Source: a virus. Taken from it: DNA of 64,000 nucleotides. Positions 371 through 64,000 of this stretch are shown here, one piece after another. The stretch is from IMG/VR virus record IMGVR_UViG_3300010430_000027, positions 1-64,000 of that record, one strand, 5' to 3'. Both the position numbers and the translations under genes were made by a program. The notes below the pieces were generated by a model that was given only the letters and a program-made list of their open reading frames with translations, did not search any database and was not told the origin of the DNA. Numbering within the stretch: position 1 is the stretch's first letter; each line of letters starts with the position of its first letter.

Positions 371-451
371 AACGCGCAAAAAGGGGTATCTTATATGAAA
401 AGAAAGAAACCCTTTCTTACAATTGTTTATTAACCCGTGGAGGGTAAAAAT

Positions 452-1290: not shown

Positions 1291-3597
1291 ATGAGACACC
1301 TCTTTCCATACTCTAAAATCCATGAGGTAGCAATGCGCCATAAGTTGATTAACTCTATTAGTAAAAGAATAAAGAAAGAGATAGCTCCTCAGAATCCTAT
1401 AAAATATCTGATGGACCACTCTGTAGATGTTTATATAGACGAGTTAATTTCAGTTGTTTATTTATACACACGTCCCAAAAAGGGCAGTGATCAATTAATC
1501 ATTATGTCTGAACTGATTACAGCGATAGGACATCGTATCAGAAGTCAATTACGACAAAGTAGGAATTCGTCCATGGCGGCAAAGACGGGAGCATTCCTTC
1601 TGTACTCCTTTGAAGAACTGGAACTGTTATATATTAAGTTGGGACAGGGTAACGGCAAGCACGGAACCTACCTGATTGAAATTTTAAATGATAATAGTAT
1701 ATCCGAGCTGTGGCAATCGATTGAATCCAAGGGCATAGAAAAAATACCTTCTGTATATCCTTATTTGAATTGGCAAGGCAGTAAGCACGCCACTGGAATG
1801 ACCATGATAAAGACTCAGAACAAGAACGTTCTGAATAGCATTGACAAGGGAAAGCATTGGATGCTGTTTGACTGTCTAAACAGGGCTCAACAAGTGGGCT
1901 GGAGGATAAATGAAGATATATACAGAATACACATATGGGCCTTGCGAAATAAGACAGATGCTTTCGCAGATATCTGGGAACAGCATAATCCTGAAGCCAA
2001 AGCAACAAAGCTCAGAGAGGCTAGAGCTATTGGTGACATTGCTAAACGATTTATTGGAAAAACGTTCTATCACCTCTATTACTATGATTTTCGGGGAAGA
2101 AAGTACGCTGCAACTGCGTATCTTCACGAGCAGGGATCCGATCTTGCTAGAGGATTCCTCTTGCGCGATGATAAGAAAGCCATTGGAGTGCAAGGCTATT
2201 TCTGGCTACTGGTCAGTATCGCTTCAAATTGGGCCGGTGATGCAGGAAGAGAAGACAAACTGAAGACCGACAAGATACCTCTTTTACAGAGATCTCAATG
2301 GGCCAAAGACAATGAAGAGATACTACTGTCTTATGCAGAGTCTCCCAAAGTCAACCAAGGTTGGATGCAAGCCGATAAGCCCTGGCAATTTCTGGCTGGA
2401 TGTAATGAGTTGTTAAAGTTCAGAGAATACCAAGCAGCTATCCTGGCAAGGCTACCCGAAGGGTTACATTGTAGTGAAGAGATGATGCACAACTACGAGT
2501 CTCATCTTGAGTGTTTTATAGACGGGAGTAATAATGGTTGTCAACATCTCTCAGCCTTAACGCTAGACGAGAAGACGGCACCACATGTGAATCTAGTACC
2601 TTTGGAATATCCAGGGGATTTATATAGTTATGTTGCAGACAATGTCTGGAGAGCACTTGAAGCGGAAGTTCTGAATTTGACTGCTGAAGAGCTTCAAGCT
2701 TGTGAAGACTTCATAGATAAACTGATAAGCATGAAGAGACGAATTAATAAGGCTCCAGCTACTAGCGAGTTGAAAGAAAAACTAATACAGGAACTTATGG
2801 AATACAAATATGAGAACGTCATGCTATTGGCGATCGCATCACCGGTATACTGGTACAGAATTAAGGACTCGAAAGAGCGTAGAAAGATCGTAAAGCGTAA
2901 CACGATGACATTGCCCTATGGAGGCACACCGTATGGTCTAGGACAACAGATAATAGATGATGCTAAGAAGCATGGCATTGATCAACTATTATTCTTAGAG
3001 CATAAATGGGGCGCATATTTAGGTAGAGCAATCTTTGATAATTGTAAGACTTCTCTGAAACGACCGATGCAACTACTGTCTGTATTTGAGCAGGCTGGAA
3101 AGGCTGCTGAGTCCAAAGATTCCTTTTTGGAATGGACTGTTCCAGTAACCAACTTCCCAGTATGCCAACACTATACACATGGTAAGGTTAAGAAGACATG
3201 GGTACAGTATGGACCACCTTCCGGCACACGCAATAAGACTGGATACTTCAAGAACACATTACAGATGCACATCTGTTTCATTGAAGATACTGTACCTTCT
3301 AAAAGGAAGCAGGCACAGGGAGCTTCTCCTAATGCCATACACAGCTTGGATGCAGCACACCTAATGATGACAGTGTGCAAAGCAAAATTTCCAGTAACCA
3401 CAGTGCATGACTCTTTCGGAACTCTATTATCCGACATGCCAGATCTATTCAGGATTATACGTGAGACGTTTGTGGAACTGTACGAGACAAGTCCTTTAGA
3501 GTCTATAATGGGTGACATTGAAGGGGACATTTCTGACATACAGATTGGGAGTTTGGACATTAATCTAATATTACAATCGGAGTATTGCTTCTCATGA
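1291..3597 (+). CDS. T7-like single-subunit DNA-dependent RNA polymerase
   Basis: Transcribes phage genes from phage-specific promoters without host subunits. All the family landmarks are present: DFRGRKY at residue 266; motif A with Asp411 in IDGSNNGCQHLS; motif B with Lys535 and Tyr543 in VKRNTMTLPYG (R-x3-K-x7-Y spacing as in T7); and motif C with Asp707 in TVHDSFGT. The C-terminus (DINLILQSEYCFS) aligns with the T7 polymerase foot. At 768 aa it is shorter than T7 (883 aa), mostly in the N-terminal promoter-binding part. The start at 1291 has a weak ribosome site; an ATG at 1333 preceded by GAGGT is a good alternative. A second, virion-type polymerase is encoded at 51847-56469. Confidence 0.97.
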   Translation: MRHLFPYSKIHEVAMRHKLINSISKRIKKEIAPQNPIKYLMDHSVDVYIDELISVVYLYTRPKKGSDQLIIMSELITAIGHRIRSQLRQSRNSSMAAKTGAFLLYSFEELELLYIKLGQGNGKHGTYLIEILNDNSISELWQSIESKGIEKIPSVYPYLNWQGSKHATGMTMIKTQNKNVLNSIDKGKHWMLFDCLNRAQQVGWRINEDIYRIHIWALRNKTDAFADIWEQHNPEAKATKLREARAIGDIAKRFIGKTFYHLYYYDFRGRKYAATAYLHEQGSDLARGFLLRDDKKAIGVQGYFWLLVSIASNWAGDAGREDKLKTDKIPLLQRSQWAKDNEEILLSYAESPKVNQGWMQADKPWQFLAGCNELLKFREYQAAILARLPEGLHCSEEMMHNYESHLECFIDGSNNGCQHLSALTLDEKTAPHVNLVPLEYPGDLYSYVADNVWRALEAEVLNLTAEELQACEDFIDKLISMKRRINKAPATSELKEKLIQELMEYKYENVMLLAIASPVYWYRIKDSKERRKIVKRNTMTLPYGGTPYGLGQQIIDDAKKHGIDQLLFLEHKWGAYLGRAIFDNCKTSLKRPMQLLSVFEQAGKAAESKDSFLEWTVPVTNFPVCQHYTHGKVKKTWVQYGPPSGTRNKTGYFKNTLQMHICFIEDTVPSKRKQAQGASPNAIHSLDAAHLMMTVCKAKFPVTTVHDSFGTLLSDMPDLFRIIRETFVELYETSPLESIMGDIEGDISDIQIGSLDINLILQSEYCFS

Positions 3598-17208: not shown

Positions 17209-17478
17209 ATGAGTAGAAAAAATACTGAAGTAATCACACAATTGATTCAGAGTGCAGCGGATCGAATGAGAGGCACAAGATTGACACGCAAAGAGGCAGA
17301 TTTGATAATTCTTAAAGTCAGAGAGCTTGCGTTTGTATTCGAATGTACTACGAGACATCAAAATAAAAGGAGCAATAATGGACAGTTACACGATATACAG
17401 CTGCCTAGAAATCATAGCAGGGGCGAACGGCAAGAAGGTAAAAGTGGCATTCTTGGAAGAGTTTTTAGAAGATCCTGA
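17209..17478 (+). CDS. Hypothetical protein overlapping the ligase start (89 aa)
   Basis: The ATG lies 8 bases after the preceding stop. The first 45 residues look natural (helical, RLTRKEADLIILKVRELAF). The last 34 are read from DNA that also encodes the ligase N-terminus and look like random basic sequence. Either the overlap of 101 bases is real, or the gene originally ended earlier and lost its stop. No family is recognised. Confidence 0.45.
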   Translation: MSRKNTEVITQLIQSAADRMRGTRLTRKEADLIILKVRELAFVFECTTRHQNKRSNNGQLHDIQLPRNHSRGERQEGKSGILGRVFRRS

Positions 17479-18724: not shown

Positions 18725-18731
18725 AGGAATT

Positions 18732-19679: not shown

Positions 19680-19980
19680 AAACTTAGAGGGATATTATAC
19701 AGGTTCGTATTATATCAGAGCACAGATGATGCCCTCAATACGTGAGTACATAGAGAAAGGGAGGTTACCAGGTAGTTTTTTGACAGCAGTAATTTGCAAT
19801 GACTTGTCACAAGCATGTCTTCATGCTGATCAGGAGAATCTTAGAAACCTTCCCGCATTTGTGCACTACTTTTATTGGAACGCTCCCAGTCCCTGTTGGG
19901 GTTCTGCTGACAAGGTTAAAGACTGGATATCTATAAGGAGGCAAGAACTTGAAGAACACGACAGAGAAGAAAGTCACTAA
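19660..19980 (+). CDS. Conserved small phage protein (106 aa)
   Basis: Likely TTG start (19660) after GGTGGAATAA, overlapping the previous gene by 20 bases. Blocks MPSIREYIEKGRLPGSFLTAVICNDL and NAPSPCWGSADKVKDW are hallmarks of a common phage family of unknown function. The first 20 residues are less conserved, so the start is uncertain. Confidence 0.7.
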   Translation: MTESSNENLEGYYTGSYYIRAQMMPSIREYIEKGRLPGSFLTAVICNDLSQACLHADQENLRNLPAFVHYFYWNAPSPCWGSADKVKDWISIRRQELEEHDREESH

Positions 19981-20329
19981 TGTCGAATTTGTTACACATC
20001 TTATGGAATTTCATCCTAGTGGCGCATTGGTGCAAGCCTTTGTAATCGAAGCCCTGAGGTTCTATTCGAGGATGGTTGGTCAACAAGATCCGGCTAATTT
20101 CGATCCAAGTAAAGAGTATTTTGTAAATCCACATGCGTGGCGTGCTATTGGGGTTGATGTACTACAGCAAGTGGTTAATAGAACCGGCTCTACTGATGAA
20201 GATAAGGCTGCTCTGGAAATAATGAGCACCATAACTAATAGATTGAGAAAAGAATCGGCCGCAGCGGAAAAAGAAAATGCTCAAAAAGCAATTGACGAGA
20301 GGGAGAAACGTCCTAAGTATGAGCATTGA
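19949..20329 (+). CDS. Conserved small phage protein (126 aa)
   Basis: The TTG start has a strong GGAGG site 7 bases upstream, which decides it. The block VEFVTHLMEFHPSGALVQAFVIEAL is typical of a widespread phage family of unknown function that often follows the 'PGSFLTAV' type gene. The end is charged helix (KESAAAEKENAQKAIDERE). Overlaps the previous gene by 32 bases. Confidence 0.72.
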   Translation: MKNTTEKKVTNVEFVTHLMEFHPSGALVQAFVIEALRFYSRMVGQQDPANFDPSKEYFVNPHAWRAIGVDVLQQVVNRTGSTDEDKAALEIMSTITNRLRKESAAAEKENAQKAIDEREKRPKYEH

Positions 20330-20393: not shown

Positions 20394-20570
20394 GATGGGT
20401 GCTGACGAAGGGACACTCCAGGGTTATGGGACAGATCGCCGCGAGGGCACACCTCCTGGCGTCCTCCTGTGACTTTGGAGTCGTTTCCGGAGTCGCCCGA
20501 GCCGGAGAAAAACGCCCCAGAGGCATCAAATCTGGAGCACTCTCAAGGCGCGGGTTTGCAGTGACCCCGT
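20394..20570 (+). ncRNA. Highly structured RNA candidate, about 175 nt
   Basis: The segment lies in the 357-base gap between 20330 and 20686. Nested helices are: closing GGGT-CTG (20397-20404) with CAG-ACCC (20559-20567); branch 1 ACTCCA/TGGAGT (20415/20476), ACAG/CTGT (20431/20467), CGCC/GGCG (20437/20458), GAGG/CCTC (20443/20452); branch 2 TCCGG/CCGGA (20486/20502); branch 3 CGCC-CCAGA/TCTGG-GGCG (20513/20531). It is much more GC-rich than neighbouring genes, has its own promoter, and holds no convincing frame. Class unknown. Confidence 0.65.
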
Positions 20571-20581
20571 TAAATTAACCC
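20563..20581 (+). promoter_or_regulatory. 19-bp conserved element, copy 1 (candidate phage promoter)
   Basis: GACCCCGTTAAATTAACCC occurs exactly here, at 28663-28681 and at 56474-56492, each time in a gap directly upstream of a + strand transcription unit. The core GTTA-AAT-TAAC can form a hairpin with a 4-bp stem and 3-base loop. This recalls the hairpin promoters of the N4 virion polymerase. A local GGGT (20552-20555) can also pair with its ACCC. Confidence 0.6.
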
Positions 20582-28662: not shown

Positions 28663-28681
28663 GACCCCGTTAAATTAACCC
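28663..28681 (+). promoter_or_regulatory. 19-bp conserved element, copy 2 (candidate phage promoter)
   Basis: Exact copy of GACCCCGTTAAATTAACCC, here at the start of the 671-base gene-free stretch (28619-29289) upstream of the terminase operon. About 60 bases later a cluster of short hairpins begins. Confidence 0.6.
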
Positions 28682-39009: not shown

Positions 39010-41406
39010 ATGACAGATTATTATCAGGCCCGCTACGACAATGAGGCTTCCGGCCCATTCGTAGCGGAAGGTGCTAACCTAACGTGGACCGCAAGCGTTG
39101 GCTTTATAGTTAAGGTCATAGATAACGGTACTACGGGCACGTTAATATATGCTCTTGTGTCAGGCGTTCCGGCCGATGACGGTGACGTCATTACGCAAGG
39201 TTCAACGACAGCTGATACTGATTTGGACTCTCAACTATTATTATATCCTGCTTATTTTAGAGAGGATGTAACTGTACCTAGTACGGGGATTATGGTGTGG
39301 TCAGGACCGGCATTGGGTGCCACTCATTCGTTCTTCTTCGATGGGCAGACCGCCAATGTTGTGGCGGGTGAGATTCTCACATTCAGCCCTGGTGGTGAAA
39401 CATGTGAAGTCATAACAGTGGAGTCTGACGCTGGTGTGTCCGGTGAACTCTCTGTACGATTCATTTCCAATGTGGATCAGACCTTACCTGCTGACGATGA
39501 CACCTTCACAGGTGATATTATTGGTGATGGTACGGTGAATGGTGTTATACATGATCGGGCGTACACTCCATTGCATCTGCACAGGTTGCTATCTCATCTC
39601 TCTACGGAAGGTGATATTGCGGGTGATGATGATCTCTCTCGTGTGGATGCAAGACCGTCATCCAAAGATACCGGCGACATCGTCAACCTATTGAGTACTA
39701 TGGTAATTGACGATACAATTGCACAACATATGTACGGCGGTTCTGTCAAGCAAAACGGTTCTGACACACTCTTTTCGGGTGTTAACGTTCAGGTGACCTC
39801 ACCGCTTGCTTCCACTCAACCCGTCTTGATTCAAGATGACGGCATCATTACCGACTACTGGAAGAATGCTTTTATGCCGCATTCAGTACAGGGTAATATC
39901 CGTCTATTGAAGAAGACCCGAGATGAAGGTGTGGATATTGACGGTAAGCGTATTCGAGGCGGACTCTTGGAGTATGGTGAAGTATACTTCTTTGGTGGAA
40001 CCACACTGGGTTCCGGCTTCACATCATTGGCACTGTTCTCTGGTCCTGATGGTAACAACAACACAGCTTCTGGCACTGTTGCGGGCGCTCCTTACAACAC
40101 CATAGTTGAAACTGAAGGATTACAGTTGATCAACTATCTTGGTGGACAAGGTCTTCAAGAGTTCGGTTACAGTCTTGAATTTGGTAGTGCTAGTAGTGCG
40201 CAGGCTTATGAGCGTACCAAGTATAATCAACGTCGTGGTACAGCGGAGACTTTATTCGGAAGAAACTGTCAATTACTCACAGGTGTAAATCTTAATTGGG
40301 CATTTGATACAGCCACAGGAACGTACACTGAAGATGAGATTCTTGCTTGGGGTACCATCATAACGTATTCCGGACAGACCACCAATTTCTCAATAGGAGA
40401 AGTTATTAACTTTGTAGGTACTGGAGCCAAAGGTCGTTTGTTATACGATAATGACGCTGGTGCCACAGGACTTATGGTCTTGGATATGGAACCTGGTATT
40501 CTACCGTTGGCCACAGACACACTTACAGGTGTCACTTCAGGTGGTGACGGTGATGTGGACACTGTAACCGATAATATTACTGCCGGTACTGCGCTTCTGA
40601 TTGCCTATGACGATGACACAGGAACTGGTAATCTGTATACACAACAGCTTACAGGCCTTATCCCTGCTAATAATCAAGTCGTGTACGGTTCTTCTTCGGA
40701 TGCTAATTCAGCTGTTAACGGTTCGGTCAATACTCGTAACATTAACAGCCAGTATATAGGTAGTTATACCGGCTCGAACTACAACCCCACAAACTTCGGT
40801 TTCGCAATAGATGTTTCCGATTCCATCCTGGGCGACAAGCTGCTCGATTTGGCCAACGTACTAGGTAGCCCACCTGACAATCAGACTGGTATTATACGTC
40901 AGTTGAAGAACGGTGATGCTGTTACTGTATACCCTTGGAATGGTTCCACTCTGGATGCCAATGGCGATCCCACTCCAACGTTTGCTGAAGCGACTCTCGA
41001 TGTTGCATTGATTGCAGCCACCAGTACTGACGTTGATGTGGACGTTATTCCGGATAACACTCCACAGACTGGTTGGTTGCGTGTTGAGAGAGATAGCGAT
41101 AGCAATCTTGATCTATTGGAGTACGTATCCCACACAGGTACGGTGTACACTCTAGGCGGTAGCACTCCTACAGCACTTAGTGCTTGCGGTATCGGCAATA
41201 CAGTAATGAGAGCTCCTTTGGATCTCGTCAGAACTGCAGATGGCGATTCTAGCTTCACGGCCATCAAAGCAGCCGGTACTACTCAGTATGTAGCCAGGAT
41301 CACAAATGGTACGGCACTGAATGGGCCCATTAAGCCCAACATTCAGACGCCCATCTTCGGTGCAACTGGTTTTGATATTAACGCTAGTAGAATCGACGAC
41401 AGCTAA
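39010..41406 (+). CDS. Large beta-rich virion protein (798 aa)
   Basis: Starts TDYYQARYDNEASGPF and contains repeated segments of the type 'GEILTFSPGGETCEVI' and 'GEVINFVGTGAKGRLLYDND', which look like short beta domains. No catalytic motif seen. Likely a tail-fibre or adhesion protein. The end overlaps the next start (TAATG). Confidence 0.7.
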   Translation: MTDYYQARYDNEASGPFVAEGANLTWTASVGFIVKVIDNGTTGTLIYALVSGVPADDGDVITQGSTTADTDLDSQLLLYPAYFREDVTVPSTGIMVWSGPALGATHSFFFDGQTANVVAGEILTFSPGGETCEVITVESDAGVSGELSVRFISNVDQTLPADDDTFTGDIIGDGTVNGVIHDRAYTPLHLHRLLSHLSTEGDIAGDDDLSRVDARPSSKDTGDIVNLLSTMVIDDTIAQHMYGGSVKQNGSDTLFSGVNVQVTSPLASTQPVLIQDDGIITDYWKNAFMPHSVQGNIRLLKKTRDEGVDIDGKRIRGGLLEYGEVYFFGGTTLGSGFTSLALFSGPDGNNNTASGTVAGAPYNTIVETEGLQLINYLGGQGLQEFGYSLEFGSASSAQAYERTKYNQRRGTAETLFGRNCQLLTGVNLNWAFDTATGTYTEDEILAWGTIITYSGQTTNFSIGEVINFVGTGAKGRLLYDNDAGATGLMVLDMEPGILPLATDTLTGVTSGGDGDVDTVTDNITAGTALLIAYDDDTGTGNLYTQQLTGLIPANNQVVYGSSSDANSAVNGSVNTRNINSQYIGSYTGSNYNPTNFGFAIDVSDSILGDKLLDLANVLGSPPDNQTGIIRQLKNGDAVTVYPWNGSTLDANGDPTPTFAEATLDVALIAATSTDVDVDVIPDNTPQTGWLRVERDSDSNLDLLEYVSHTGTVYTLGGSTPTALSACGIGNTVMRAPLDLVRTADGDSSFTAIKAAGTTQYVARITNGTALNGPIKPNIQTPIFGATGFDINASRIDDS

Positions 41407-42668
41407 TGGCTACCACCGTCGATGGTGTTACAGGGGTAATATCTGTTCCAAGAGCGGATATGACCCTGATTCAAGCATCTCCAACTGAGATACGTGAATT
41501 AAATCTTAATCAGTGGCGCATTGAATTGAGAGACATTGAAGATGATGAAAGTATGCGCCCATGGCCCAAGACTCACGACCACAATGCCGATGTAGTAGTC
41601 GGCGGCGTGGCTTTGGCTGATGTATTGATAATACTGCCGTACTACACAGTTACATTTGAGGACGGTCAGTATGCTGTCAATTTAATAGGACTCAACTCCA
41701 ATGTTGGAGATAGAGTAAACGTAAATCAAGTCTCCGTTAGAAGTGCAAATTCAGCCGGTCTCGTAAATTCTCGTGCTATTGAGTCTATAGAGTACAATAA
41801 TGAAGTTACTATAGATCAATCCAATACGACAGGGAATGCGAAGTCCGGCTCTATTTCGCCCACAGGCACTTTTCGTGAACCGAGTGATAATGTTGATGAT
41901 ACTTTACTGATAGCCAGTGTTAACGGGTTTAATCAAATAAAGGTCATTGAAAATGTTACCTTCGGTACAGGTGATATTATTGATAAATTTAAAGTTATTG
42001 GATCGAACATTCAGAGGAGTCTCATCACAGTGGATGCAGGCGCTGATTGTCTAGATTGTGAATTCAGCAGTTGTAGATTAACAGGCACTTTGGATGGTGG
42101 CTCATTGCTCACTGATTGTGTTATACTAGGTCTAAACTACATAAACGGTACTGTGCGTCATTGTCGTTTGGATCCAACCTTAGATATAGTACTAGGAGGT
42201 GGTCCCAGTAATCTTGCGTTCTTTGAGTTTTGTAACAGTGGACAACCTGGCGTTGACACACCCACAATAGACTGCGGTGGAAATGGTCCCAGTCTGTTTA
42301 TGGCCAGCTATTCTGGTGGAATAGAGCTAACGAATAAGACCGGTGCATCAGCATGCACAATAGGTCTTTCGGAAGGACAAGTAATAATAGATTCAACTTG
42401 TACAAATGGCACTATTGTGTGCAGAGGAGATGGTAAAGTCGTAGATGAACTCGGCAAACACATGGGAAGTGGCACTTACAATGGAAGTCTTACATTAGTA
42501 AATGAATGCATTTACGGTGAGCATATTCACGAGATGTGGCAGAGAAAAGATTTGGATCCTGATAATCCAAACGTATATGCTGATGATGCTAGTAGTATCG
42601 TTAGTCCTAAATTTAGTATCGTCCGTTCCGACAACGGCAACGGCACCTTCACAACACAACGGAGCTAA
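41406..42668 (+). CDS. Beta-helix-like virion protein (420 aa)
   Basis: N-terminal domain (about 1-130) includes RELNLNQWRIELRDIEDDE. Residues 180-360 show successive short strands such as LDCEFSSCRLTGTLDGGSLL and HCRLDPTLDIVLGGG, typical of a right-handed beta-helix. The C-terminus ends GNGTFTTQRS. Probably part of the host-interaction apparatus. Confidence 0.7.
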   Translation: MATTVDGVTGVISVPRADMTLIQASPTEIRELNLNQWRIELRDIEDDESMRPWPKTHDHNADVVVGGVALADVLIILPYYTVTFEDGQYAVNLIGLNSNVGDRVNVNQVSVRSANSAGLVNSRAIESIEYNNEVTIDQSNTTGNAKSGSISPTGTFREPSDNVDDTLLIASVNGFNQIKVIENVTFGTGDIIDKFKVIGSNIQRSLITVDAGADCLDCEFSSCRLTGTLDGGSLLTDCVILGLNYINGTVRHCRLDPTLDIVLGGGPSNLAFFEFCNSGQPGVDTPTIDCGGNGPSLFMASYSGGIELTNKTGASACTIGLSEGQVIIDSTCTNGTIVCRGDGKVVDELGKHMGSGTYNGSLTLVNECIYGEHIHEMWQRKDLDPDNPNVYADDASSIVSPKFSIVRSDNGNGTFTTQRS

Positions 42669-50284: not shown

Positions 50285-51850
50285 ATGGGTGTCGCAAACG
50301 CTGCGGACAAGACTAAGATAGTCGCGGATCCGAATGCAGAATACGAGTCTATGAAAGACATATGGCAAAGAAGCCGCGCTGTCTGTAGTGGTGAGCGATA
50401 CGTGAAGAACTTAGATTACTATATAGATGTCCACTACTATACAAATCTATTAATCCCTTTTTCGCCATCCATGTCAGATGCTCAGTATGCATTCTATAAA
50501 GCTGAGGCAGAGTTGCCAGGGATTGTGTCGCAATTCGCAAGGATGCTTGTCGGTGGTTTATTAAGGAAAGAACCTTTATTGGAATTACCTGATAGTGTTC
50601 CAGAAGGTACAATGGACTGGATAATGAATAATTTCACTCAGGACAACTCCACCATAACTTCCTTTTTGGATGTGGGGTTGTGGGAAGAGATGCAGACCAG
50701 TCGTGCTTGGGTGTACGTTGACCATCCTGTATTGACAGATGAAGAAGCTGGTACGATAAGTCAAGAAGAGATGTTTGAAAGGGCTCCTTATCCTGTTCTT
50801 TGGAAGGCAGAGAATATTATTAATTGGAAGACTAAGACAGACGTAAAGGGTAATTCCATTCTTGAGCAGTTGATTGTGAAAGGGACAGTGGCAAGATATC
50901 CTGAAGATAATGAATTCCATCCAAACTACATAAGTACTGTATTTGTACATGAGCTGGTTGGGGGTCTTTATCAGATCAGAGTATTTGAGAAAGTTGTGGA
51001 AGAGAGTAAAGTTCCTATGGTCAGTGGAACAAAGTTCGAAGACAATTCGAAGACTATGGATAAGTACGTACTCACTGAAACTAAGACCAATATATTTGCC
51101 AATAATGAGCGTCTTACTATAATACCTGCATGGCCTCTAAACGGTAGTATCTCCATAACAGAGCCGATACTTTCTCCGATTATCGATAAAGAGGTTGCCT
51201 TATATAATAAGTTGAGTAGACGTAATCACCTGTTGTATGGTGCTTCTACATATACTCCCATAATACAATCAGATATGTCTCCTGAAGATTTCAAGAAAAT
51301 CGTGGATGCTGGTCTTGGGACATGGTTGCATCTGGGTGTAGATGACAAGGCCACTGTGTTGGAAACTCCCACAGCAGCTTTGAAAGACATGGAAACGGCC
51401 ATAGCCAGTGCCATTGAAGAGATGGCTAAGTTGGGTATACGCATGTTGTCTCCTGAGAGTGCTCAATCTGGTGTTGCTTTGGAAATACGTAATGCGGCGC
51501 AAAATGCACAATTGGGCTCTTTGAATAATAAGATTAGTATGATAATGTCTAAGGTCATTGCATTCATGATCGAATGGCGCACAGGTGAACAGATTAAAGA
51601 TTCAGAAGTGAAGTTCATGTTATCAGCAGATTTCAACCCAATACCCTTGGGTGCTGATTGGCTAAGATTGGCCACTGAGTGGTATGAGACAGGGCTGATC
51701 CCACGTTCTATTTGGTTGCAAATTCTCAAGCAGAATGATATGATCGCTCCTGATTACGATGACGAAGAAGGTGTCAAGGAAATTGATGAAGACGAACTCA
51801 TAAACAAGGAAGAAGAGGAAGATCCTGAGTTCTTTGAAAATGTCAAATGA
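50285..51850 (+). CDS. Portal protein (DUF4055-type)
   Basis: Forms the DNA entry/exit channel of the head. Matches the DUF4055 portal family in pattern: MKDIWQRSRAVCSGE, LPGIVSQFARMLVGGLLRKEP, then ALYNKLSRRNHLLYGAS and SAQSGVALEIRNAAQNAQLG in the stem and clip region. Length 521 aa is usual. An acidic C-terminus (EEGVKEIDEDELINKEEEEDPE) follows. Overlaps the MuF fusion gene by ATGA. Confidence 0.9.
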   Translation: MGVANAADKTKIVADPNAEYESMKDIWQRSRAVCSGERYVKNLDYYIDVHYYTNLLIPFSPSMSDAQYAFYKAEAELPGIVSQFARMLVGGLLRKEPLLELPDSVPEGTMDWIMNNFTQDNSTITSFLDVGLWEEMQTSRAWVYVDHPVLTDEEAGTISQEEMFERAPYPVLWKAENIINWKTKTDVKGNSILEQLIVKGTVARYPEDNEFHPNYISTVFVHELVGGLYQIRVFEKVVEESKVPMVSGTKFEDNSKTMDKYVLTETKTNIFANNERLTIIPAWPLNGSISITEPILSPIIDKEVALYNKLSRRNHLLYGASTYTPIIQSDMSPEDFKKIVDAGLGTWLHLGVDDKATVLETPTAALKDMETAIASAIEEMAKLGIRMLSPESAQSGVALEIRNAAQNAQLGSLNNKISMIMSKVIAFMIEWRTGEQIKDSEVKFMLSADFNPIPLGADWLRLATEWYETGLIPRSIWLQILKQNDMIAPDYDDEEGVKEIDEDELINKEEEEDPEFFENVK

Positions 51851-54800
51851 TAAACAATGCTAATACAACTATTTACGATGGAAGGGTAGATAGGGCAGCA
51901 TTACTGAGATTGTATGAGAAGAACACTATAGGGAAGGTTGAAGTGGTGTTAAATGGGCATGTTGTTAGATTGGACAAGATTATTAAGACTTCCAAATTGA
52001 CATCTAGAAATTTTAAGACTTTCCAATTAACAGTGGACAGGGAACTGAAGAGAACTTTTAAAGAAGCATTCAATGTTTCCAAAAGATCTTTATTGGATCT
52101 TGCATCAGACCAAGTATCGTTTACGTTCCAAAACCTAGAAGCATCGGTCAGTAATGTGTGGCGTACTCGTAAACCACAGAGGCGTGTAGCTGAAGAACTC
52201 GTATTGAAAAATCCTTTGCATCAGAATAAGACTCTAGCATTGGGTTGGATAGACGTAAGTAATAATGAGAAAAAGCGAATAGTGGGTGTGATCCGGAAAG
52301 GTCTGGCCGATGGCGATACTCCAGAAGTCATTGCCAGGAATGTTAGGCGTGGCAGTGTTCACAAAATCACAAGAAATCAATCTAAAGCTTTAGTTACCAC
52401 ATCAATTACTAGCGTGTATGCTCAGGCTGACCACGCTGTTTATGAGGCCAATGCTAAGATGCTACGTGGGTGGCAATATGTGGCTGTACTGGATTCAAGA
52501 ACTACTCAAATATGTACACATAGGGATGGTAAAATATATCCCGTATCTGACACATCGCATCTACCTCCAGCGCATTGGCGCTGTAGATCTACAACGACTC
52601 CCATTGTAAAAAATTGGAATGATTTGGGTAAGTTGGAAGGTGTTAATCAGGTACGTAAGAGAAATTTAAAGAAGTTGACTCCTGCCCAAATAGCATTCTA
52701 TGATGGTCAAACGCCACTTAAGGAGTCTTACAATGCATGGTTACTGAGGCAACCTAGCGATGTTCAATTACGACATCTAGGAGATCACCAAAAGGTAGAA
52801 CTCTTTAACAATGGTAAATTAGAGGTCAGTAAGTTCACTGCTCCAAGTGGTGCCGAATTAGGAATACGGCAGTTACGTCAATTGACAGACTCTGACTATT
52901 CTACCCCCAATGACACCAAGAAATTCGCATTGGCCAAACAAAAATTGGATGCAATGCAGTTAGGAGCCAGTGCTCCAGAGGATTTCCTAGATAGTATTAA
53001 GCTCACAAATACCTTGAAAGAATACTATATCTTACAATCTCGTGAGTTGGGCGGCACGTTGTCCTTAACAAACTATCGTGGTAACTTAATTGGTAGCAAG
53101 ACCAGGACTAAGAATTTGGTTCTCAATAGATTGCCCAGAGATGATCAACTGCTTTTCAATCCCATAACAGGTAGATATGAAGACAGTAGATTGTTTCAAC
53201 CTTCTCCGGCCATCTTACAAAACAATCTAAGACTGGTGAATGAGAGCACAGTATTGAAAGCAGCTGATAAGACATATATTAATAAGTTCATAAAGAGTCT
53301 AGAAGACCATATGAGTGTTAATGAAAGAGCTGTTGTATCAGACAATCTCAGAATCCTTTTCACAAGATATAGAAAGAATCCATCTGCATGGGCCAATTTT
53401 AAGGCCGTATCACAAGCACAAGTTAAATTTGATGTAATGAACGTTTCAGATGCAATTGAAACACAACTGAGAAAAGATGCTGACTTTTTAAAGAAGTTAA
53501 AATTAGACAATTATATTGATCCGATTCTGGGTCCTGTACAATTTAAAGATCTATCTGACAAGTTTGTAGCTAATATTCTCGCTAGAAATAAGTGGGAAGA
53601 TAGGGTGGCTCCTAAGCTTGCTAGACAGCTCAGAGATGTATTTGATGTACGCATCCCAATTAAGATAAAAAGACGCGTTCCAGATGATAAGTTACAGCAA
53701 TTCTACCTAAGGTTCGCCCATAGATTGAGTCTAGCAGACAGTCCCGATTTGGATAATTTTGCTGTGGCTCTGGGCAGAGATCTCTATAACATGGCCAATA
53801 TAAACGGTACCAGAACTCAATGGTTGAATCTGGGAAAGCGACTGGTGGAGTCAAATAACAAATTCTATAGTCTAGAGACTTTTGGTGTTCAAAAACGTAG
53901 GATGAAGAGCAAATTGAGTGGTCAATACTTTGGACCATACTATGACACTTTCTCGCATAATATAAGAATTACCGATCCCAGGATTCAGCGGTACGCCAAG
54001 TTGAATCGTAGCATAGATGTTGGCTTGCGCGTGGGCGTTATAGACCCCAAGAACCAATTAATCTTTAGGGAAGGCGCTAAGACGTATTATGTTAGAAACA
54101 ACATAGGATTGTTGACTGACACAAGGATACCGATTACCTCCACTTCCAGTTTCACAAATTTTCCTGAAAAGTTCTTAGACAAAGATATGATAGATTCCCT
54201 GAATTGGGCATCCAAAAGTAAATTCAAAGTAGATAGAGATTATCATGATTTTGTTGTAAAGCTGTTGAACTTCAGTGATGACCGAGGTAAAGCCGCGTTC
54301 TATGACAACTTGAACACGTACAAACAATACATCATTTCGAGAGGAGATTCTTATGAACGTTTCAAAGCTATGGAGTGGTTTTCGAAAAATGACATTGCCT
54401 TCAGCAATCACGCGTTTATTGACAGCCGTGCTAGGATTTATGAAAGAGGATTTATTGGGCCTCAAGCCGGAGAAACCTTCAGACCGTTCTTAAATACTGC
54501 CTATGAACGTAACTTCAGTCCAAGGGACTTTCAAAACTTTCAAGATCAGATAGGTTCTTTTCTTGGTGGTTTGGATGACTTCTTCGAAGGTAGATTCAAC
54601 TCATTGAGTGTTCTTGGTAGACAGCGTTTGGCAGACAAATGGCGTCCTGAGATTGTAAAGATAGGGCACCAGATGCTCAGAGGTAAACCCAGAGATATTA
54701 GAGCCATTCTGAGTTCTGAATTTGTATCTAAAATAGAAGGCGAAGAATTGGGTAAATTTTTCAGGCTGGCTATGGAGTCAGCGAAGATAGATGATTTCTT

Positions 54801-56469
54801 GGGTGGTGTTTATACTCGTAAGTCTGTGGCCAACCTAAGTAAATATAGAACTGCATTAGCGCTTGAACAAGATGCTTCATCTTCCGGTGCACAGATCATT
54901 GCATTGACTACTAAGAATAAGCAATTGGCTGAACTCAGTAACGTCATTCCAACCAACCAAAAGAAGAGACTCTATGACGAGATTGCCGGTCTGACTTTCA
55001 ATGATCCCAGATTTAAGAGACTCAACATGCGTCTAGGATTGAATGAGAGAGATCTCAGAAAGGCCGCTAAAGCTCAGAACATGGTAACATTCTATGGTGC
55101 TGGAGAAAGAACCGGTGTACTGAATGTTGAAAAGAAGTTGGCCAAGATACTCGAAGAAGACGGTGAGACCCTTGTGGTCAGGGCGTCTCAGAGAGATGAG
55201 GTATTGAGTGAGATCTCGGCGAGAGTGGCACGATTTGAAAGATTTGACCCTGAGACAGCGAGAGAGTTGACAGTACTGAGAGCTAATATAAGAGATCTTT
55301 TCAACAAAGGTCTCAATCCCGGTCAGGATATGATGGAAGAATTGTTCTTTTTGACGCCAACCACAAAAGAGTTCTTGGAGAAGATGTCCAAAAGTTATAA
55401 TAAAGTTGTAACACCGAACGACTTTAAAGAGATAGCTTCTATAATGAGTGAGCATCTTGCTATACAAACGCCTATACTAAAGTCTTTCACGAAATTCATG
55501 GGGAGATTGGCTTCAGACTTTCTAGATAATGCCAAGCCATCTAAAGCTGATTTCGATTGGACGTCTGTATTCAAGCAGACATTAGTAGGTACACGCAAGG
55601 ATGGTTACAAGTTGCCTCCCAGAGTGGGCGAAATCCTGGGAGTCAGCACAAAGAAGTCTGTGTCTGAAAGCTTTCTGAATCGTTTTGGATTTTGGAAACC
55701 CAATGGCACTTTGGATGAGATACTGTATGGTCCCAGGGCTCCCAACAATAGACGTACAGGTGCCAAGTATTTCAAGACAAGTGTATTCAAGGTAAAGAAG
55801 CTATTTGAATTGGAAATATTTAAAGCCAACGTATTACCGAAGAGATGGACAAGCGCCCCTTGGGTTAACTTTGATGGCAAGATACTTGAACAAAATTTCA
55901 CATCCAGAATTGAACAGAGATTGTTTTATAGAGACAGAGATGGAAATCCTATAAACAACATTATTCAAATTGATAATAAGACTGAAGCCACTTGGTGGGA
56001 ACAGTTTGTCAATGATTCTGGCAATATAAATGATATTGCAGATACAGCTAAGGCTAAGACTTCATTTGCCGTAAATGGCACTCACTCTAATGATGCTGTA
56101 TTGGTAAAAAGATTCCATCTTTGGGGAAGAGATAATAAAGTAAACACTGCAACTGTTCATGATGCGTTTTTCACTAATGCAGCTGAGATGTTACAAGCCA
56201 AAGATGCACTGAGAGGTATATATGCGAAGGCTGTAGACTCGAATGTAATAAAACAAACATTGGATGAGATGCTCTCTAGAGGATTTCCCAGACATTTATA
56301 TGATCAGTATTTAAGAGAAGCCATTGAGACTGGACTTATCCCAGTTCCAGGTAAATCGAGAATAGACGGAAGACTTCTGACTGATACAGACATACTAGGT
56401 CGCGAAGATATTTTAAGAAACATTGAAGAAGTATTTGAAGACGATTTAGCTTGGTATGGTATCGGGTAG
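51847..56469 (+). CDS. MuF head protein fused to a single-subunit RNA polymerase (1540 aa)
   Basis: Residues about 150-270 form a MuF-type head morphogenesis domain (TTSITSVYAQADHAVYEA; DSRTTQICTHRDG with Cys223; PPAHWRCRS). The rest carries RNA polymerase landmarks in order: D859SRARIY with PQAGE (T7 DWRGRVY region); motif A Asp1009 (EQDASSSGAQIIAL); motif B Arg1071, Lys1075, Tyr1083 (R-x3-K-x7-Y, as in T7 and N4); motif C His1438-Asp1439 (TVHDAFF). The B-C interval is long (356 residues), resembling N4 virion polymerase more than T7. Likely packaged near the portal and injected to start transcription. Overlaps the portal gene. Confidence 0.85.
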   Translation: MINNANTTIYDGRVDRAALLRLYEKNTIGKVEVVLNGHVVRLDKIIKTSKLTSRNFKTFQLTVDRELKRTFKEAFNVSKRSLLDLASDQVSFTFQNLEASVSNVWRTRKPQRRVAEELVLKNPLHQNKTLALGWIDVSNNEKKRIVGVIRKGLADGDTPEVIARNVRRGSVHKITRNQSKALVTTSITSVYAQADHAVYEANAKMLRGWQYVAVLDSRTTQICTHRDGKIYPVSDTSHLPPAHWRCRSTTTPIVKNWNDLGKLEGVNQVRKRNLKKLTPAQIAFYDGQTPLKESYNAWLLRQPSDVQLRHLGDHQKVELFNNGKLEVSKFTAPSGAELGIRQLRQLTDSDYSTPNDTKKFALAKQKLDAMQLGASAPEDFLDSIKLTNTLKEYYILQSRELGGTLSLTNYRGNLIGSKTRTKNLVLNRLPRDDQLLFNPITGRYEDSRLFQPSPAILQNNLRLVNESTVLKAADKTYINKFIKSLEDHMSVNERAVVSDNLRILFTRYRKNPSAWANFKAVSQAQVKFDVMNVSDAIETQLRKDADFLKKLKLDNYIDPILGPVQFKDLSDKFVANILARNKWEDRVAPKLARQLRDVFDVRIPIKIKRRVPDDKLQQFYLRFAHRLSLADSPDLDNFAVALGRDLYNMANINGTRTQWLNLGKRLVESNNKFYSLETFGVQKRRMKSKLSGQYFGPYYDTFSHNIRITDPRIQRYAKLNRSIDVGLRVGVIDPKNQLIFREGAKTYYVRNNIGLLTDTRIPITSTSSFTNFPEKFLDKDMIDSLNWASKSKFKVDRDYHDFVVKLLNFSDDRGKAAFYDNLNTYKQYIISRGDSYERFKAMEWFSKNDIAFSNHAFIDSRARIYERGFIGPQAGETFRPFLNTAYERNFSPRDFQNFQDQIGSFLGGLDDFFEGRFNSLSVLGRQRLADKWRPEIVKIGHQMLRGKPRDIRAILSSEFVSKIEGEELGKFFRLAMESAKIDDFLGGVYTRKSVANLSKYRTALALEQDASSSGAQIIALTTKNKQLAELSNVIPTNQKKRLYDEIAGLTFNDPRFKRLNMRLGLNERDLRKAAKAQNMVTFYGAGERTGVLNVEKKLAKILEEDGETLVVRASQRDEVLSEISARVARFERFDPETARELTVLRANIRDLFNKGLNPGQDMMEELFFLTPTTKEFLEKMSKSYNKVVTPNDFKEIASIMSEHLAIQTPILKSFTKFMGRLASDFLDNAKPSKADFDWTSVFKQTLVGTRKDGYKLPPRVGEILGVSTKKSVSESFLNRFGFWKPNGTLDEILYGPRAPNNRRTGAKYFKTSVFKVKKLFELEIFKANVLPKRWTSAPWVNFDGKILEQNFTSRIEQRLFYRDRDGNPINNIIQIDNKTEATWWEQFVNDSGNINDIADTAKAKTSFAVNGTHSNDAVLVKRFHLWGRDNKVNTATVHDAFFTNAAEMLQAKDALRGIYAKAVDSNVIKQTLDEMLSRGFPRHLYDQYLREAIETGLIPVPGKSRIDGRLLTDTDILGREDILRNIEEVFEDDLAWYGIG

Positions 56470-56473
56470 TTAT

Positions 56474-56492
56474 GACCCCGTTAAATTAACCC
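56474..56492 (+). promoter_or_regulatory. 19-bp conserved element, copy 3 (candidate phage promoter)
   Basis: Exact copy of GACCCCGTTAAATTAACCC, four bases after the MuF-RNAP stop and about 85 bases ahead of the scaffold and major capsid genes. An upstream GGGT (56464-56467) can pair with its ACCC. It would boost expression of the most abundant virion proteins. Confidence 0.6.
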
Positions 56493-56576: not shown

Positions 56577-57251
56577 ATGCCGCCTAAAAAAGATGATGAA
56601 GACAAGAAAGATGATTTAGATGCTAAAGACATCAAAATCGACGACGATAAAGATTCAGACGAAGGTACTAAAACACTGGAAGAACAAATTCAAGCAGGTA
56701 TTGATGAAGCGTTAAAGCCAATTAAAGAGAAATTGGACGGTGCTTACGATGCTCGTGACGAAGCTATTGCCAAAGTTAAAGACTTTGAAAGGAAAGAACG
56801 CGAAGCAGAACTTGCTCGTCTCGAAGAGGAAGGTAAGCACAAAGAAGCTTACGAATCGAGGCTTGCTGAAGAGAAAGCTGAAACGGAAGCTCTTAAAAAA
56901 GAAAATGTTAAGCTTACACGCGACATTTCTGTTAAAAATGAGCTGGCCAAATACGAATTCAGGAATGGCACCGCCAGTGAGATGGCATTCCGAAATGTTG
57001 CTGATAGTCTAGTACAAGACGATAAAGGGACATGGGTTCACAAATCTGGAGACAATATCGAAACTACAGTAAAAGACTTCTTGGAAAATTCCGACAATTC
57101 CTTCCTACTGAAAGTTAAAACATCATCTGGTTCAGGCAATGATACTGAAATTCTACCCGACACCTCAGGTACAGAGTCGAAATCTCTTTTTACAAAACCT
57201 ATAGCTGAGGTACTTAAATTAGCTGGCGAGGGAAAACTTCGCAAAAAATAG
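56577..57251 (+). CDS. Capsid scaffolding protein
   Basis: Highly charged helical protein (KKDDEDKKDDLDAKD start, then EEKAETEALKKENVKLT coiled coil) of 224 aa directly before the major capsid gene; this matches phage scaffold (DUF4355-like) proteins. The C-terminal part SKSLFTKPIAEVLKLAGEGKL is typical. It would guide capsid assembly and leave the head. Confidence 0.85.
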   Translation: MPPKKDDEDKKDDLDAKDIKIDDDKDSDEGTKTLEEQIQAGIDEALKPIKEKLDGAYDARDEAIAKVKDFERKEREAELARLEEEGKHKEAYESRLAEEKAETEALKKENVKLTRDISVKNELAKYEFRNGTASEMAFRNVADSLVQDDKGTWVHKSGDNIETTVKDFLENSDNSFLLKVKTSSGSGNDTEILPDTSGTESKSLFTKPIAEVLKLAGEGKLRKK

Positions 57252-57263: not shown

Positions 57264-58463
57264 ATGACTTTACGTACGGACGTTGCTGGTGCAACTGAGT
57301 TTGCACTACAAGAAGCACTCGGAGCGTACTCCGATGAGGCTTATACTAACGCCAGGAAACTGTCAAGTACTGGAATTGTAAGCGGAAATCCAGAGATTGA
57401 TACGAGTTCAGAGACCTATATCGGTCAGATGCGCTGGTTTCAACCTCTGAATCCTGTTATCAATGTAGCATCGTTGACAGTTAGCACAGCTGGTACTCCT
57501 ACCACTTATGGTTCAGAATACCTGAACTACGTTAAGACGGCTCGTACACACGGTGCTGAAAAGGTCAACTTGCAGACTCTTGTAACTCAACAAGACGGTC
57601 TTGCAAAAGTTGGTCGTGACTTCGGTGAAACTAAAGCGCAAGACGAGCACAATGCTGTTCTTTCTTTGCTGAAAGGTGTTTGTATTGCGGAAGCATTGCA
57701 CGGTGCAGGTTCAGCCGGTGGTGGTGCTGGTCTAGGTGGACAATCCTGGGATAACGATCCCAAAGATCCACTGTACGGCTTTTACGTAGATCTCGGAGCT
57801 GCTCTTTTGGTTACTGCTCCCGCAGCTGCCAATATGGGTGCACAACGTGCAGCTGGCTTTCTTGATGCTGTTGGGATGGCTTTCAAAGATTACGAGCCTT
57901 CTTTCTTCTATCTGGTCACAAGTCCAGAAGTTCTTGCATCTCTGCGCTCCGCAAATCTGGTTGATGAGACTACAGTTGTCGATGGCAACGTTGAATTCAA
58001 TACAATCTTCCAAGGCAAGTTCCGTTTGATTCAGAGCCGTGCAAATCAAAATCTGACTCCCGCAGAATTGGATCTTTTTGATGCAACCAATGCTACAAAG
58101 GCTGGTGTAGATATTCTTGGTCCTAAGACTACTTATATTGTTGTCCCTGGTGCTATCGCAATGGAATCTCTGCAGATCGCTGAAGATGTCGAGATCGATC
58201 GTGATGCTGCTGCCTACTTAGGTGGTGGTACTACTCAGATCTGGTATCGTTGGGGTTATGTCGCTCATCCGGCTGGTTACAATTGGGCCGGTTCTCAGGA
58301 TAAGTTCCCGAGTGATGCTGAGTATCAGTATGTTGTAGAAGCTGGAACTCCTGGCCCATTGGATGCTGCAGCAGTGGCGCTTCCCGCAACAACTACCGGT
58401 ACTTGGGTTCGTAAGACTGAATCAGTACTTTCACTTGGAATCCTTCCTGTATTCCATAGCTAA
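57264..58463 (+). CDS. Major capsid protein
   Basis: 399 aa, right after the scaffold gene and in a highly expressed position. Family pattern includes MRWFQPLNPVINVASLTVS, DFGETKAQDEHNAVLSLLKGV, PSFFYLVTSPEVLASLR and the end region IWYRWGYVAHPAGYNWAG. Most likely HK97-fold. No N-terminal protease-processed delta domain; scaffold is separate. Confidence 0.9.
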   Translation: MTLRTDVAGATEFALQEALGAYSDEAYTNARKLSSTGIVSGNPEIDTSSETYIGQMRWFQPLNPVINVASLTVSTAGTPTTYGSEYLNYVKTARTHGAEKVNLQTLVTQQDGLAKVGRDFGETKAQDEHNAVLSLLKGVCIAEALHGAGSAGGGAGLGGQSWDNDPKDPLYGFYVDLGAALLVTAPAAANMGAQRAAGFLDAVGMAFKDYEPSFFYLVTSPEVLASLRSANLVDETTVVDGNVEFNTIFQGKFRLIQSRANQNLTPAELDLFDATNATKAGVDILGPKTTYIVVPGAIAMESLQIAEDVEIDRDAAAYLGGGTTQIWYRWGYVAHPAGYNWAGSQDKFPSDAEYQYVVEAGTPGPLDAAAVALPATTTGTWVRKTESVLSLGILPVFHS

Positions 58464-61643: not shown

Positions 61644-64000
61644 ATGTCAGGTGTAAGTATAGATTTTGAAGCTAATGCGACATCTGCCAGAAAAGAACTT
61701 GCCTTAATCAATAGGCAACTGGCGGAGTTGATACGCAACTCTGTCAAAACCAATCAATCTCTTGGGGCTATTAGTGGCAATAAGCTGAGAGCAGTAAATA
61801 AGGCAGTAGGTGATACCACCAAGCAAGTAGGTAAATACAAGACTGCCTCTCTTGATACAAATAAGAAAATAGTGGCATCAAACAAAAAAGTTGCCAGTAG
61901 CTTTTTCAGTATAAAGAATGCTGTAATTGGCCTTGCTGCTGCTTTCGCAACCGTTACTGGCGTGAATGCTATAAACCGTTCTGCAGACGCGCTCGTCAAT
62001 CTGGACAATAGATTACGTCTGGTAATAGACAGCACAGACGAACTGATTATAAGGCAGAATTCTTTATACCGTGTTGCCAGAAGAGCTCGTGCCGAATTCA
62101 GAACCACTGTGGAATTGTATTCAGATTTTGCGTTCGCTTTAAAGAACACAAGTAAAAGCGCTGACCAGATAGAACGTTTGACAGAGACCTTGCAGAAGAT
62201 GGCCGTACTGTCTGGAGGTACCGCACAGACAATAAGAGCCGCTTTTGTGCAGCTCAAACAGGGTATCGCCTCAGGTACACTCAGAGGTGAAGAATTGAAT
62301 TCTGTTCTTGAGCAGCTACCTTTCCTGGGTAACGCCTTGAAGGAATCTCTGAAGCTGGACGCGGGAGCATTACGCAAGTTCGCTGAAGAAGGCAAGCTCA
62401 CGACCAATCTTGTGGTGAAGGTTCTGGAAGACTACCGAAAGCGCACTGATGATAAATTTAATAAGACATCCATAACGGCACAACAAGCTGTCGGACAGCT
62501 GACCACATCCATATCCAGATTCTTTGGTACACTCAGTTTGGACTTTGGATTTGCTGAAGGATTCGCCACACGCATAATTGCTATGACAGATGCAGTGGAT
62601 GGGTTTGCTAAGAATCTTCTATTGTCTAGCGTGATAGTGAAGCTTGCTGCAAGGAATTTCGCAACAGACTTTCTCGAAGGTAATTTCTTCAATTTGGTAA
62701 AAGAAGCCGTGCTTAATGGAGATGTACTGTTGAGCAGATCTTTTAAGCTATATTCATTTTATCAGGATATGCATGAGAAGATTACCGGTCTATTGGCTAT
62801 CTTTATTACTCAAAAGAAGAAGTTAGAAGAGGCTATAACAGGTCCCACCCTTAGAGTCAGAGCTGAGACAGCCAGAGAAGAGTTCACCTTGGATGAAGGG
62901 AAGATACCATCATTTGGACAGTTGCTGGAAAAGAATCCTTTTTCCGAAGTGAAAGACAGTTCCAAGGGCCTGCTTCTTGAATTTGCGATACTGCTAAAGA
63001 ATATCGGCGTTTTGATATTTAGCACGTTGTCGGGTATTGCAGGATTGTTTCCCAAACTATTGGGACCACCGATAACCGTAGTTACTAACTTGTTTGTTGA
63101 GTTAAATATATTAGTCACTCGATTCTCTGCCAATGTATTTAAAGCTTCATTTCCGATAAGAGCCTTTGTGGAGTCCATGAATGACACGTTATCGGTATTC
63201 AGGAGAGGTAGAAACGTAGGTAGGGCTTTCACAGAGGTCTTTAGATCTACCAGTATATCTGATCTAAATGACAATCTTGAAGATCTGAACAGAGAGTTCA
63301 TAAGAGGTCCAACCAGAAATTGGCCCGTTGTATGGGAACGTGTTACGAATTCCATACGTACAGCTCTGACGCCTTTACAAGACATGCTAATATCTCTGGG
63401 CCTGATCGATAGCAAGCTTCTGAGAATACGCAACAGACGTTTGGAACGAGCCAAAGAAGTTATAATCTCAACGGCGGAATCCATAACCAGGGCATTCACT
63501 GAAATTCTGGAGCCTGTATTGCAAGTACTATTGGCCAGGCTTGTAGGCTTTGTAACTGTTTGGGCTGAATCATACAGACGTGCAATAACGGATACATTCA
63601 GTGATGCCGGTGGAAGATCTTTGGCTTCAGCCCTTGTCAGACAAGTTAAGGCAATCGTCAAAGTAGTCAGAGACTTAGCATCTGAAGCATTTGAAGGTGT
63701 GTTTGATGTACAGCTTTTTGATGCTAACAACTTTAAAGAGATAGCTTCAACCATATTAACTGTATTTAGAGAAGTATTCTTTAGACTTTTCAGTTTCATA
63801 TCTGGTTTCTTTTCGGAGTTGTCTACTCTGGTGTGGGAATCTGTGAGAGATTCTTTTGGTAACGGTATAGATGCCTTCCTGGCGTTTGCTGGAGATGCAT
63901 TAAAAACTATCTCATCAACAATTTCATCGCCGCTGCAAACTGTTGCAAATGCTTTGTCTGATATAGACTTCGATTTCAGCTTTAACATAGATATTCCGGA
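61644..64000 (+). CDS. Tape measure protein (5' part, continues beyond window)
   Basis: Start after TTAGAGGTACACA. 785 residues are visible and the frame is open at the window end. The N-terminus is helical with repeated Lys and Asn. Residues about 95-240 hold the tape measure domain (FRTTVELYSDFAFAL, LSGGTAQTIRAAFVQLKQG, LRGEELNSVLEQLPFLGNAL). Several hydrophobic stretches follow (LLLEFAILLKNIGVLIF). Sets tail length and may form a channel during DNA entry. The large minus-strand frames over it are shadows. Confidence 0.93.
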   Translation, partial: MSGVSIDFEANATSARKELALINRQLAELIRNSVKTNQSLGAISGNKLRAVNKAVGDTTKQVGKYKTASLDTNKKIVASNKKVASSFFSIKNAVIGLAAAFATVTGVNAINRSADALVNLDNRLRLVIDSTDELIIRQNSLYRVARRARAEFRTTVELYSDFAFALKNTSKSADQIERLTETLQKMAVLSGGTAQTIRAAFVQLKQGIASGTLRGEELNSVLEQLPFLGNALKESLKLDAGALRKFAEEGKLTTNLVVKVLEDYRKRTDDKFNKTSITAQQAVGQLTTSISRFFGTLSLDFGFAEGFATRIIAMTDAVDGFAKNLLLSSVIVKLAARNFATDFLEGNFFNLVKEAVLNGDVLLSRSFKLYSFYQDMHEKITGLLAIFITQKKKLEEAITGPTLRVRAETAREEFTLDEGKIPSFGQLLEKNPFSEVKDSSKGLLLEFAILLKNIGVLIFSTLSGIAGLFPKLLGPPITVVTNLFVELNILVTRFSANVFKASFPIRAFVESMNDTLSVFRRGRNVGRAFTEVFRSTSISDLNDNLEDLNREFIRGPTRNWPVVWERVTNSIRTALTPLQDMLISLGLIDSKLLRIRNRRLERAKEVIISTAESITRAFTEILEPVLQVLLARLVGFVTVWAESYRRAITDTFSDAGGRSLASALVRQVKAIVKVVRDLASEAFEGVFDVQLFDANNFKEIASTILTVFREVFFRLFSFISGFFSELSTLVWESVRDSFGNGIDAFLAFAGDALKTISSTISSPLQTVANALSDIDFDFSFNIDIP

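Follow-up and report, generated by a model that had tools for sequence, protein, structure and literature searches.

A phage MuF head protein fused to a predicted T7-type RNA polymerase, with a second polymerase and two conserved motifs in the same phages

We analyzed a 64,000-nucleotide stretch of viral DNA (the window), which comprises bases 1-64000 of the 69,346-base IMG/VR record IMGVR_UViG_3300010430_000027, and found that a single gene at 51847..56469 on its plus strand (+) joins a MuF head protein to a T7-type RNA polymerase (RNAP). The gene starts with ATG, encodes 1540 amino acids and contains no internal stop codons, in agreement with a preliminary description of this DNA, made from the sequence alone, that had placed one uninterrupted MuF-polymerase frame at exactly these coordinates. 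Our analysis confirms that the fusion is real, and that it is both widespread and largely unannotated. It likewise confirms the fused part as a T7-type polymerase by fold, with an active site that is intact in sequence and with predicted activity. New here are a free, second T7-like polymerase and two promoter-like motifs, motif E and motif M, present in the same phages; the preliminary description recognized the fusion and missed all three. We consider it quite likely that the fusion protein is a packaged and ejected virion polymerase for pre-early genes, including that of the second polymerase, which would in turn read later genes.

A head protein and a polymerase in one reading frame

Comparison of the fusion open reading frame (ORF) with Pfam returned exactly two families over their cut-offs, Phage_Mu_F (51.7 bits versus a cut-off of 29.6, 1.8e-13) and RNA_pol (47.6 bits versus a cut-off of 22). 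The Phage_Mu_F core at 52282..52596 (+; residues 146-250) lies within a longer match of residues 5-349 to the head morphogenesis family PHROG 241 (7e-60), and the protein also matches TIGR01641 (SPP1 gp7; 6.5e-16). On the polymerase side, residues 996-1100 match the RNA polymerase family PHROG 414 (1.1e-15). Directly upstream is the portal gene (50285..51850, +; PHROG 145, 1.6e-60), whose TGA stop codon is overlapped by the ATG of the fusion gene so that the two genes share 4 nt (junction AATGATAA), which is the portal coupling that had been described. The over-cut-off domain and the adjacent portal gene together identify a MuF protein of the PF04233/SPP1 gp7 type, an assignment that rests on profiles, as an AlphaFold prediction of residues 1-420 from the single sequence reached a mean predicted local distance difference test score (pLDDT) of only 39.6.

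The preliminary description had also proposed structure prediction of the polymerase region, and a T7/mitochondrial-type polymerase fold was indeed found. Specifically, an AlphaFold2 model of residues 345-1540 (52879..56466, +), built from an alignment of the window protein with 46 translated relatives, has a mean pLDDT of 82.5 and a predicted template modelling score of 0.78. When this model was compared with the PDB using Foldseek, the top matches listed were all T7 or mitochondrial RNAPs (probability 1.00, E values down to 5e-18). The TM-scores to these enzymes, normalized to target length, reach 0.56 at 10-12% identity, a match that speaks to fold class and not to domain placement because the global root-mean-square deviations are large. 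Among predicted viral proteins, the structural match ranked first (E 3e-65) has 1463 residues, a length like that of the fusion protein of the DSS3 phages discussed below, and is followed by T7-like and virion polymerases.

All sequence landmarks of the single-subunit (T7/mitochondrial) RNAP superfamily are found within this plus-strand gene. They comprise the DxRxRxY motif D859-S-R-A-R-I-Y865 at 54421..54441 (D421-W-R-G-R-V-Y in T7), motif A, D1009-ASSSGAQ, at 54871..54894 (D537, DGSCSGIQ, in T7), motif B with R1071, K1075, Y1083 and G1084 at 55057..55098 (R627, K631, Y639 and G640 in T7, with equal spacing) and motif C, H1438-D1439, at 56158..56163 (H811-D812 in T7), so that the catalytic Asp pair, Lys, Tyr and His are all present. 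The landmark positions given earlier were all correct, as was the T7 spacing of motif B; for motif A the position of Asp1009 stood, whereas the D-x4-SG-x-Q spacing has to be replaced by D-x3-SG-x-Q, as in T7. Across a 50-sequence alignment with identities ranging from 67% to 28% (the latter being that of phage DSS3_VP1), residues D859, R861, R863, Y865, D1009, G1014, Q1016, K1075, Y1083, G1084, H1438 and D1439 are identical in 50 of 50 sequences, and R1071 is substituted in four of the 50 rows. The best-conserved region is the palm and fingers segment that carries motifs A and B (residues 861-1110), with 70.5% mean identity versus 55.4% for residues 1-260.

We explored the distribution of the fusion with two IMG/VR scans that used the polymerase part, the second starting from a divergent member, which gave overlapping sets of 366 and 72 stretches, respectively, that encode relatives. 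In intronless full-length relatives both parts are joined in single ORFs. The coincidence of MuF and polymerase cannot be chance, given two curated profiles over cut-off, a confident fold and dozens of full-length relatives with the same fusion. Among 50,697 annotated phage records the fusion occurs only in EBPR siphovirus 1 and in the roseophages DSS3_VP1 and DSS3_PM1 (Naomviridae), where it is annotated as head protein, minor head protein-like or head morphogenesis; database entries that name such proteins just 'head' or 'minor head protein' are hereby corrected. Since DSS3_VP1 and DSS3_PM1 are isolated phages, the fusion is directly testable. A bacterial genome collection yielded two matches, both from one metagenome bin and one of them on a 74,179-base contig that equals in size a viral contig among the relatives, and nothing suggests that the fusion phages are prophages.

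The fusion gene occupies a position in the head module, with the portal gene on one side and a head scaffolding gene (56577..57251, +; PHROG 206, 2.9e-5) on the other, followed by the major head protein gene (57264..58463, +; PHROG 247, 1.6e-18). A separate protein is encoded by the tail tape measure gene, which begins at 61644, runs through the window end (61644..64000, +) and continues to the end of the record at 69346 (at least 2567 amino acids). No polymerase profile match was found in its first 1285 residues, and its presence indicates a long-tailed phage.

The gene is variable in relatives in two further respects. Group I introns (Rfam RF00028) repeatedly split it (L151 8246-16931, L127, L130, L116, L099, L131, L001 and others) at residues ~695, 878, 1073-1080 (motif B), 1411-1415 and 1439 (directly after motif C), in some cases with an HNH gene close by, and in one phage the gene contains five Rfam intron matches. 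In addition, the polymerase part of other relatives contains in-frame inserts of ~145-220 amino acids, located at residues ~985 or ~1104 (L137 6078-6515, L140, L143 12944-13396 and L112 13319-13966). The L137 and L143 inserts match phrog_5043 and phrog_17560, respectively, both families of unknown function, and by eye the latter insert resembles a ParB-type domain. Inteins were considered and rejected, as an intein profile is absent and intein-like ends were not seen. Finally, Pelagibacter phage Kolga (L152 5992-7893) has a MuF protein of the same lineage that lacks the polymerase and shows a weak zinc metallopeptidase likeness at its C-terminus in its place, while encoding a separate polymerase. 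From sequence, it is possible that cargo has been swapped on one carrier.

A second polymerase and two conserved intergenic motifs

The second, free T7-like RNAP is encoded at 1291..3597 (+; 768 amino acids, start codon uncertain; Pfam RNA_pol 219 bits; PHROG 414, 3.9e-107) and is presumed to be the non-virion RNAP. Its greatest similarity is to that of DSS3 (32%). Such a gene is present in 21 of 23 fusion-bearing records, the two exceptions being incomplete records (47 and 54 kb). These phages therefore encode a second phage polymerase beside the fusion, as in a two-polymerase strategy. Profile comparison of the fused polymerase using hhalign gave E values of 5.5e-6 to the T7 family, 4.7e-5 to the free polymerase and 0.38 to the virion RNAP (vRNAP) of phage N4, represented by six N4-like vRNAPs. 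A search for relatives of the N4 domain likewise had no fusion phages among the matches listed. Because its profile is nearer to the T7 family and to the free polymerase, the fused enzyme does not resemble an N4 vRNAP placed on a changed carrier, although any branching order is tentative at such divergence. In some relatives (G013, G018, G020, G011, G009 and G017) the second polymerase gene is itself split or expanded into two to four pieces, which suggests introns or inserts.

Two motifs emerged from words enriched in the intergenic DNA of ten genomes. Motif E is a 25-nt sequence, GCG-N9-GTATCTTATATGA, with 16 fixed bases, and its window copy, GCGCAAAAAGGGGTATCTTATATGA at 374..398 (+), falls within the second polymerase gene's leader, where it is a candidate virion-polymerase promoter. 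The exact pattern is present in at least 119 stretches over all of IMG/VR, as compared with 0 matches for the reversed pattern. There are 49 motif-E contigs of at least 28 kb, of which 48 have a gene for one or both polymerases (the second polymerase in 45, the fusion in 32), and both polymerases are present in 22/22 such contigs of at least 60 kb. Motif E marks this phage group. By position, 69 of 88 exact sites (75 by our own arithmetic when permuted records are allowed for) precede the second polymerase gene by no more than 10 kb, with a median of 2.1 kb, most of them 1-4 kb upstream and on the coding strand, and most of the remainder form a second cluster ~15-22 kb downstream of this gene. 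The 143 distinct sites have two further features in common, an A-rich stretch that follows GCG and a purine that precedes GTATC, and hairpins of at least 6 pairs occur just 3' of the motif at 28% of sites versus 6% in shuffles. Motif E is absent from Kolga, which lacks the fusion, and from DSS3, which has a distant fusion (the best match in DSS3_VP1 has 3 mismatches). An altered form, GCG...CCATCTTATATGA, occurs in G018 at 40111-40135 and 41535-41559 and offers a natural test of polymerase-promoter co-change.

Motif M (ACCCGTTAAATTAACCCAGG) has three copies in the window. The copy CCCGTTAAATTAACCC at 56477..56492 (+) lies between the end of the fusion gene and the scaffold/capsid operon, and the others are at 20566..20581 (+) and, upstream of the terminase region, at 28666..28681 (+). 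With up to 4 mismatches allowed, the motif is found ~8-12 nt past the end of the fusion gene at 86 of 131 loci versus 0 of 655 control segments. Thus motifs E and M are both conserved and differ in genomic position, each being a candidate promoter, in the case of motif M for the second polymerase. An earlier k-mer search had returned a different motif, TGCCAAGGGTCT, which proved false as it is located inside the tape measure gene. In DSS3_VP1 (L002/L084) a repeated intergenic motif, TAGGGTRCGTTAAAGAAGGG, is found at record positions 2243, 2334, 7409, 19203, 19238, 29397, 37520 and 46552. It has CGTTAAA in common with motif M and several copies in the structural region, and from its sequence it is possibly the promoter of the DSS3 free polymerase.

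Other repeats of the window include near-identical, terminator-like hairpins (CCTCCCTTCGGGGAGG) with T-rich tails behind small early genes at 819-857 and 1010-1048, as well as intergenic clusters of short GGCAAGGCAAGG-type repeats at 15063-15290 and 16520-16630, near a tRNA-Tyr at 16642. The strong N4-type hairpins seen in the early region of relatives mostly appear terminator-like or differ from phage to phage.

Proposed role of the fused polymerase during infection

The scheme that we propose is the simplest one to accommodate all these observations and follows the two-stage order known for N4 and P23-45. A few copies of the fusion protein would join the portal inside the procapsid via the MuF part. 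Upon infection, the fusion protein would exit the head together with the DNA or before it, refold in the cell and, independently of host sigma factors, read pre-early genes from motif E. The second, free polymerase would be among the pre-early products and would use motif M to read the middle and late genes, those of the capsid operon among them. The location of motif M right behind the fusion gene would hold expression of the fusion (few copies) below that of the capsid protein (hundreds). This reading, in which we infer packaging, ejection, polymerase activity and the pairing of each polymerase with its motif, is supported by the profiles, by the fold and by conservation as well as genome context, and the motif that precedes the second polymerase gene adds indirect support. 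More broadly, a large group of uncultured siphoviruses has probably recruited a T7-type enzyme independently of N4 vRNAP, as a class of virion RNAP not recognized before. This enzyme would be delivered by the portal-associated MuF protein, would have its own promoter class, would begin to transcribe the genome as it enters, with no need of host polymerase, and may help to pull the DNA in.

Several points weigh against this scheme. Packaging, ejection and activity are predictions from sequence and model in every member of the group. Transcription of the gene that follows motif E could be due to its own product or to the host, with the promoter having been assigned by elimination. The distant DSS3_VP1 has the fusion without motif E, which implies either that promoters have diverged or that the link is confined to one group. 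Lastly, a protein of 1540 residues would have to pass through a long tail, although the virion polymerases of N4 (~3,500 residues; PMC12633501) and P23-45 (5,002 residues; PMC10770324) are larger than the fusion.

Among the alternatives, it is unlikely that host RNAP reads motif E and the pre-early genes, with the second polymerase driving the rest and the MuF-polymerase being used otherwise. The TATAT-rich stretch of motif E could act as a -10 element, but its 16 fixed bases, including those of the would-be spacer, are exact in >100 stretches of divergent related phages, and such identity suits a co-inherited phage polymerase better than it suits varied hosts. There is also no clear excess of sigma-70-like sites in window positions 1-20000 (63 versus 51 +/- 7.4 in shuffled sequence). 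We give little credence to a second alternative, in which the fused polymerase is active but functions late in assembly or packaging, such as in portal transcription or in handling of the genome, without ever reaching the cell. The fusion gene does lie within the head operon, MuF proteins function in head assembly, and ejection is itself a deduction; however, late transcription would already be covered by the second polymerase, motif E is tied to a pre-early position and not to late genes, and MuF proteins have been proposed as carriers of delivered enzyme domains (PMC5512222). At least as improbable is that the polymerase part is injected and, instead of chiefly making pre-early mRNA, provides primers on the incoming DNA or acts as a motor that pulls the genome in. 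Mobile elements widely carry injected primases (PMC5512222) and T7 DNA entry uses host polymerase as a downstream motor (PMC12633501), but the window already encodes a primase-helicase (11326-12981), the conserved motif before the second polymerase gene suits promoter use, and pulling and transcription can coexist. Finally, a decayed and inactive passenger, which the 10-12% identity to solved enzymes would allow, is very improbable with catalytic residues that are invariant in 50 sequences down to 28% identity, conservation that peaks around motifs A and B, and group I introns, which prefer conserved sites, at or near these motifs in relatives.

If the proposed virion role of the fusion protein is correct, then a T7-type virion enzyme carried by MuF represents an independent invention, and the MuF slot is capable of delivering an entire transcription apparatus. 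It would also add a compact polymerase/promoter pair, with the 25-nt motif E, of possible laboratory use.

Comparison with known systems

To our knowledge, virion polymerases are known in few lineages, namely N4-like phages, jumbo phages, crAss-like phages and P23-45. A literature search, with most subscription papers and preprints outside its coverage, found no description of a MuF-polymerase fusion. The closest fusions are those of DSS3_VP1, DSS3_PM1 and EBPR siphovirus 1, which encode the same fusion protein, with DSS3 also having a second polymerase. T7 RNA polymerase shares the fold and all catalytic motifs; it stands alone whereas the enzyme described here is fused, and the distance from the motif B Tyr to the motif C Asp is 356 residues here versus 173 in T7. 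Polyvalent MuF proteins similarly combine a MuF N-terminus with enzyme cargo that is predicted to be delivered, their cargoes including RNase-type, RelA/SpoT, 2H, PRTase and kinase domains (PMC5512222), whereas here the cargo is a polymerase. The crAss-like polymerase, which had been suggested for comparison, is unsuitable as it has an unrelated two-barrel fold (PMC10770324).

The N4 vRNAP (Schitoviridae gp50) is likewise a T7-like single-chain polymerase within a large virion protein, with virion location being predicted in our case. It was called 'separate' in the preliminary description, which is wrong, as it makes up the central third of an ejected protein of ~3,500 residues (PMC12633501). 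After ejection it transcribes early genes that include a second T7-like polymerase (PMC12633501), the same scheme that we propose here. The two systems differ in that the N4 carrier is the ~3,500-residue ejection protein of a podovirus, in contrast to a 1540-residue MuF protein in a long-tailed phage with a tape measure, and in that the polymerase domains are not alignable at profile level (hhalign E 0.38). N4 promoters are DNA hairpins, and none of N4 type (perfect stem of at least 7, loop of 3-5) was seen in window positions 1-12000; weaker hairpins at motif E sites sit after, and not before, the motif. The fusion protein would be N4 vRNAP-like in function, while in sequence, carrier and virion type it falls outside the N4-vRNAP family.

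Phage P23-45 (gp96 virion and gp64 non-virion polymerase) also combines a structural protein-polymerase fusion, a long tail, two polymerases and two promoter motifs, the latter being candidates in our case, and its virion polymerase transcribes the non-virion polymerase gene from a distinct AT-rich motif (PMC10770324). However, its polymerase is a two-barrel DxDxD enzyme on the tape measure protein, whereas the present enzyme has a T7-like fold and is encoded apart from the tape measure. N4 vRNAP is the closest known system in the proposed function, and P23-45 the closest in architecture, with an unrelated polymerase fold.

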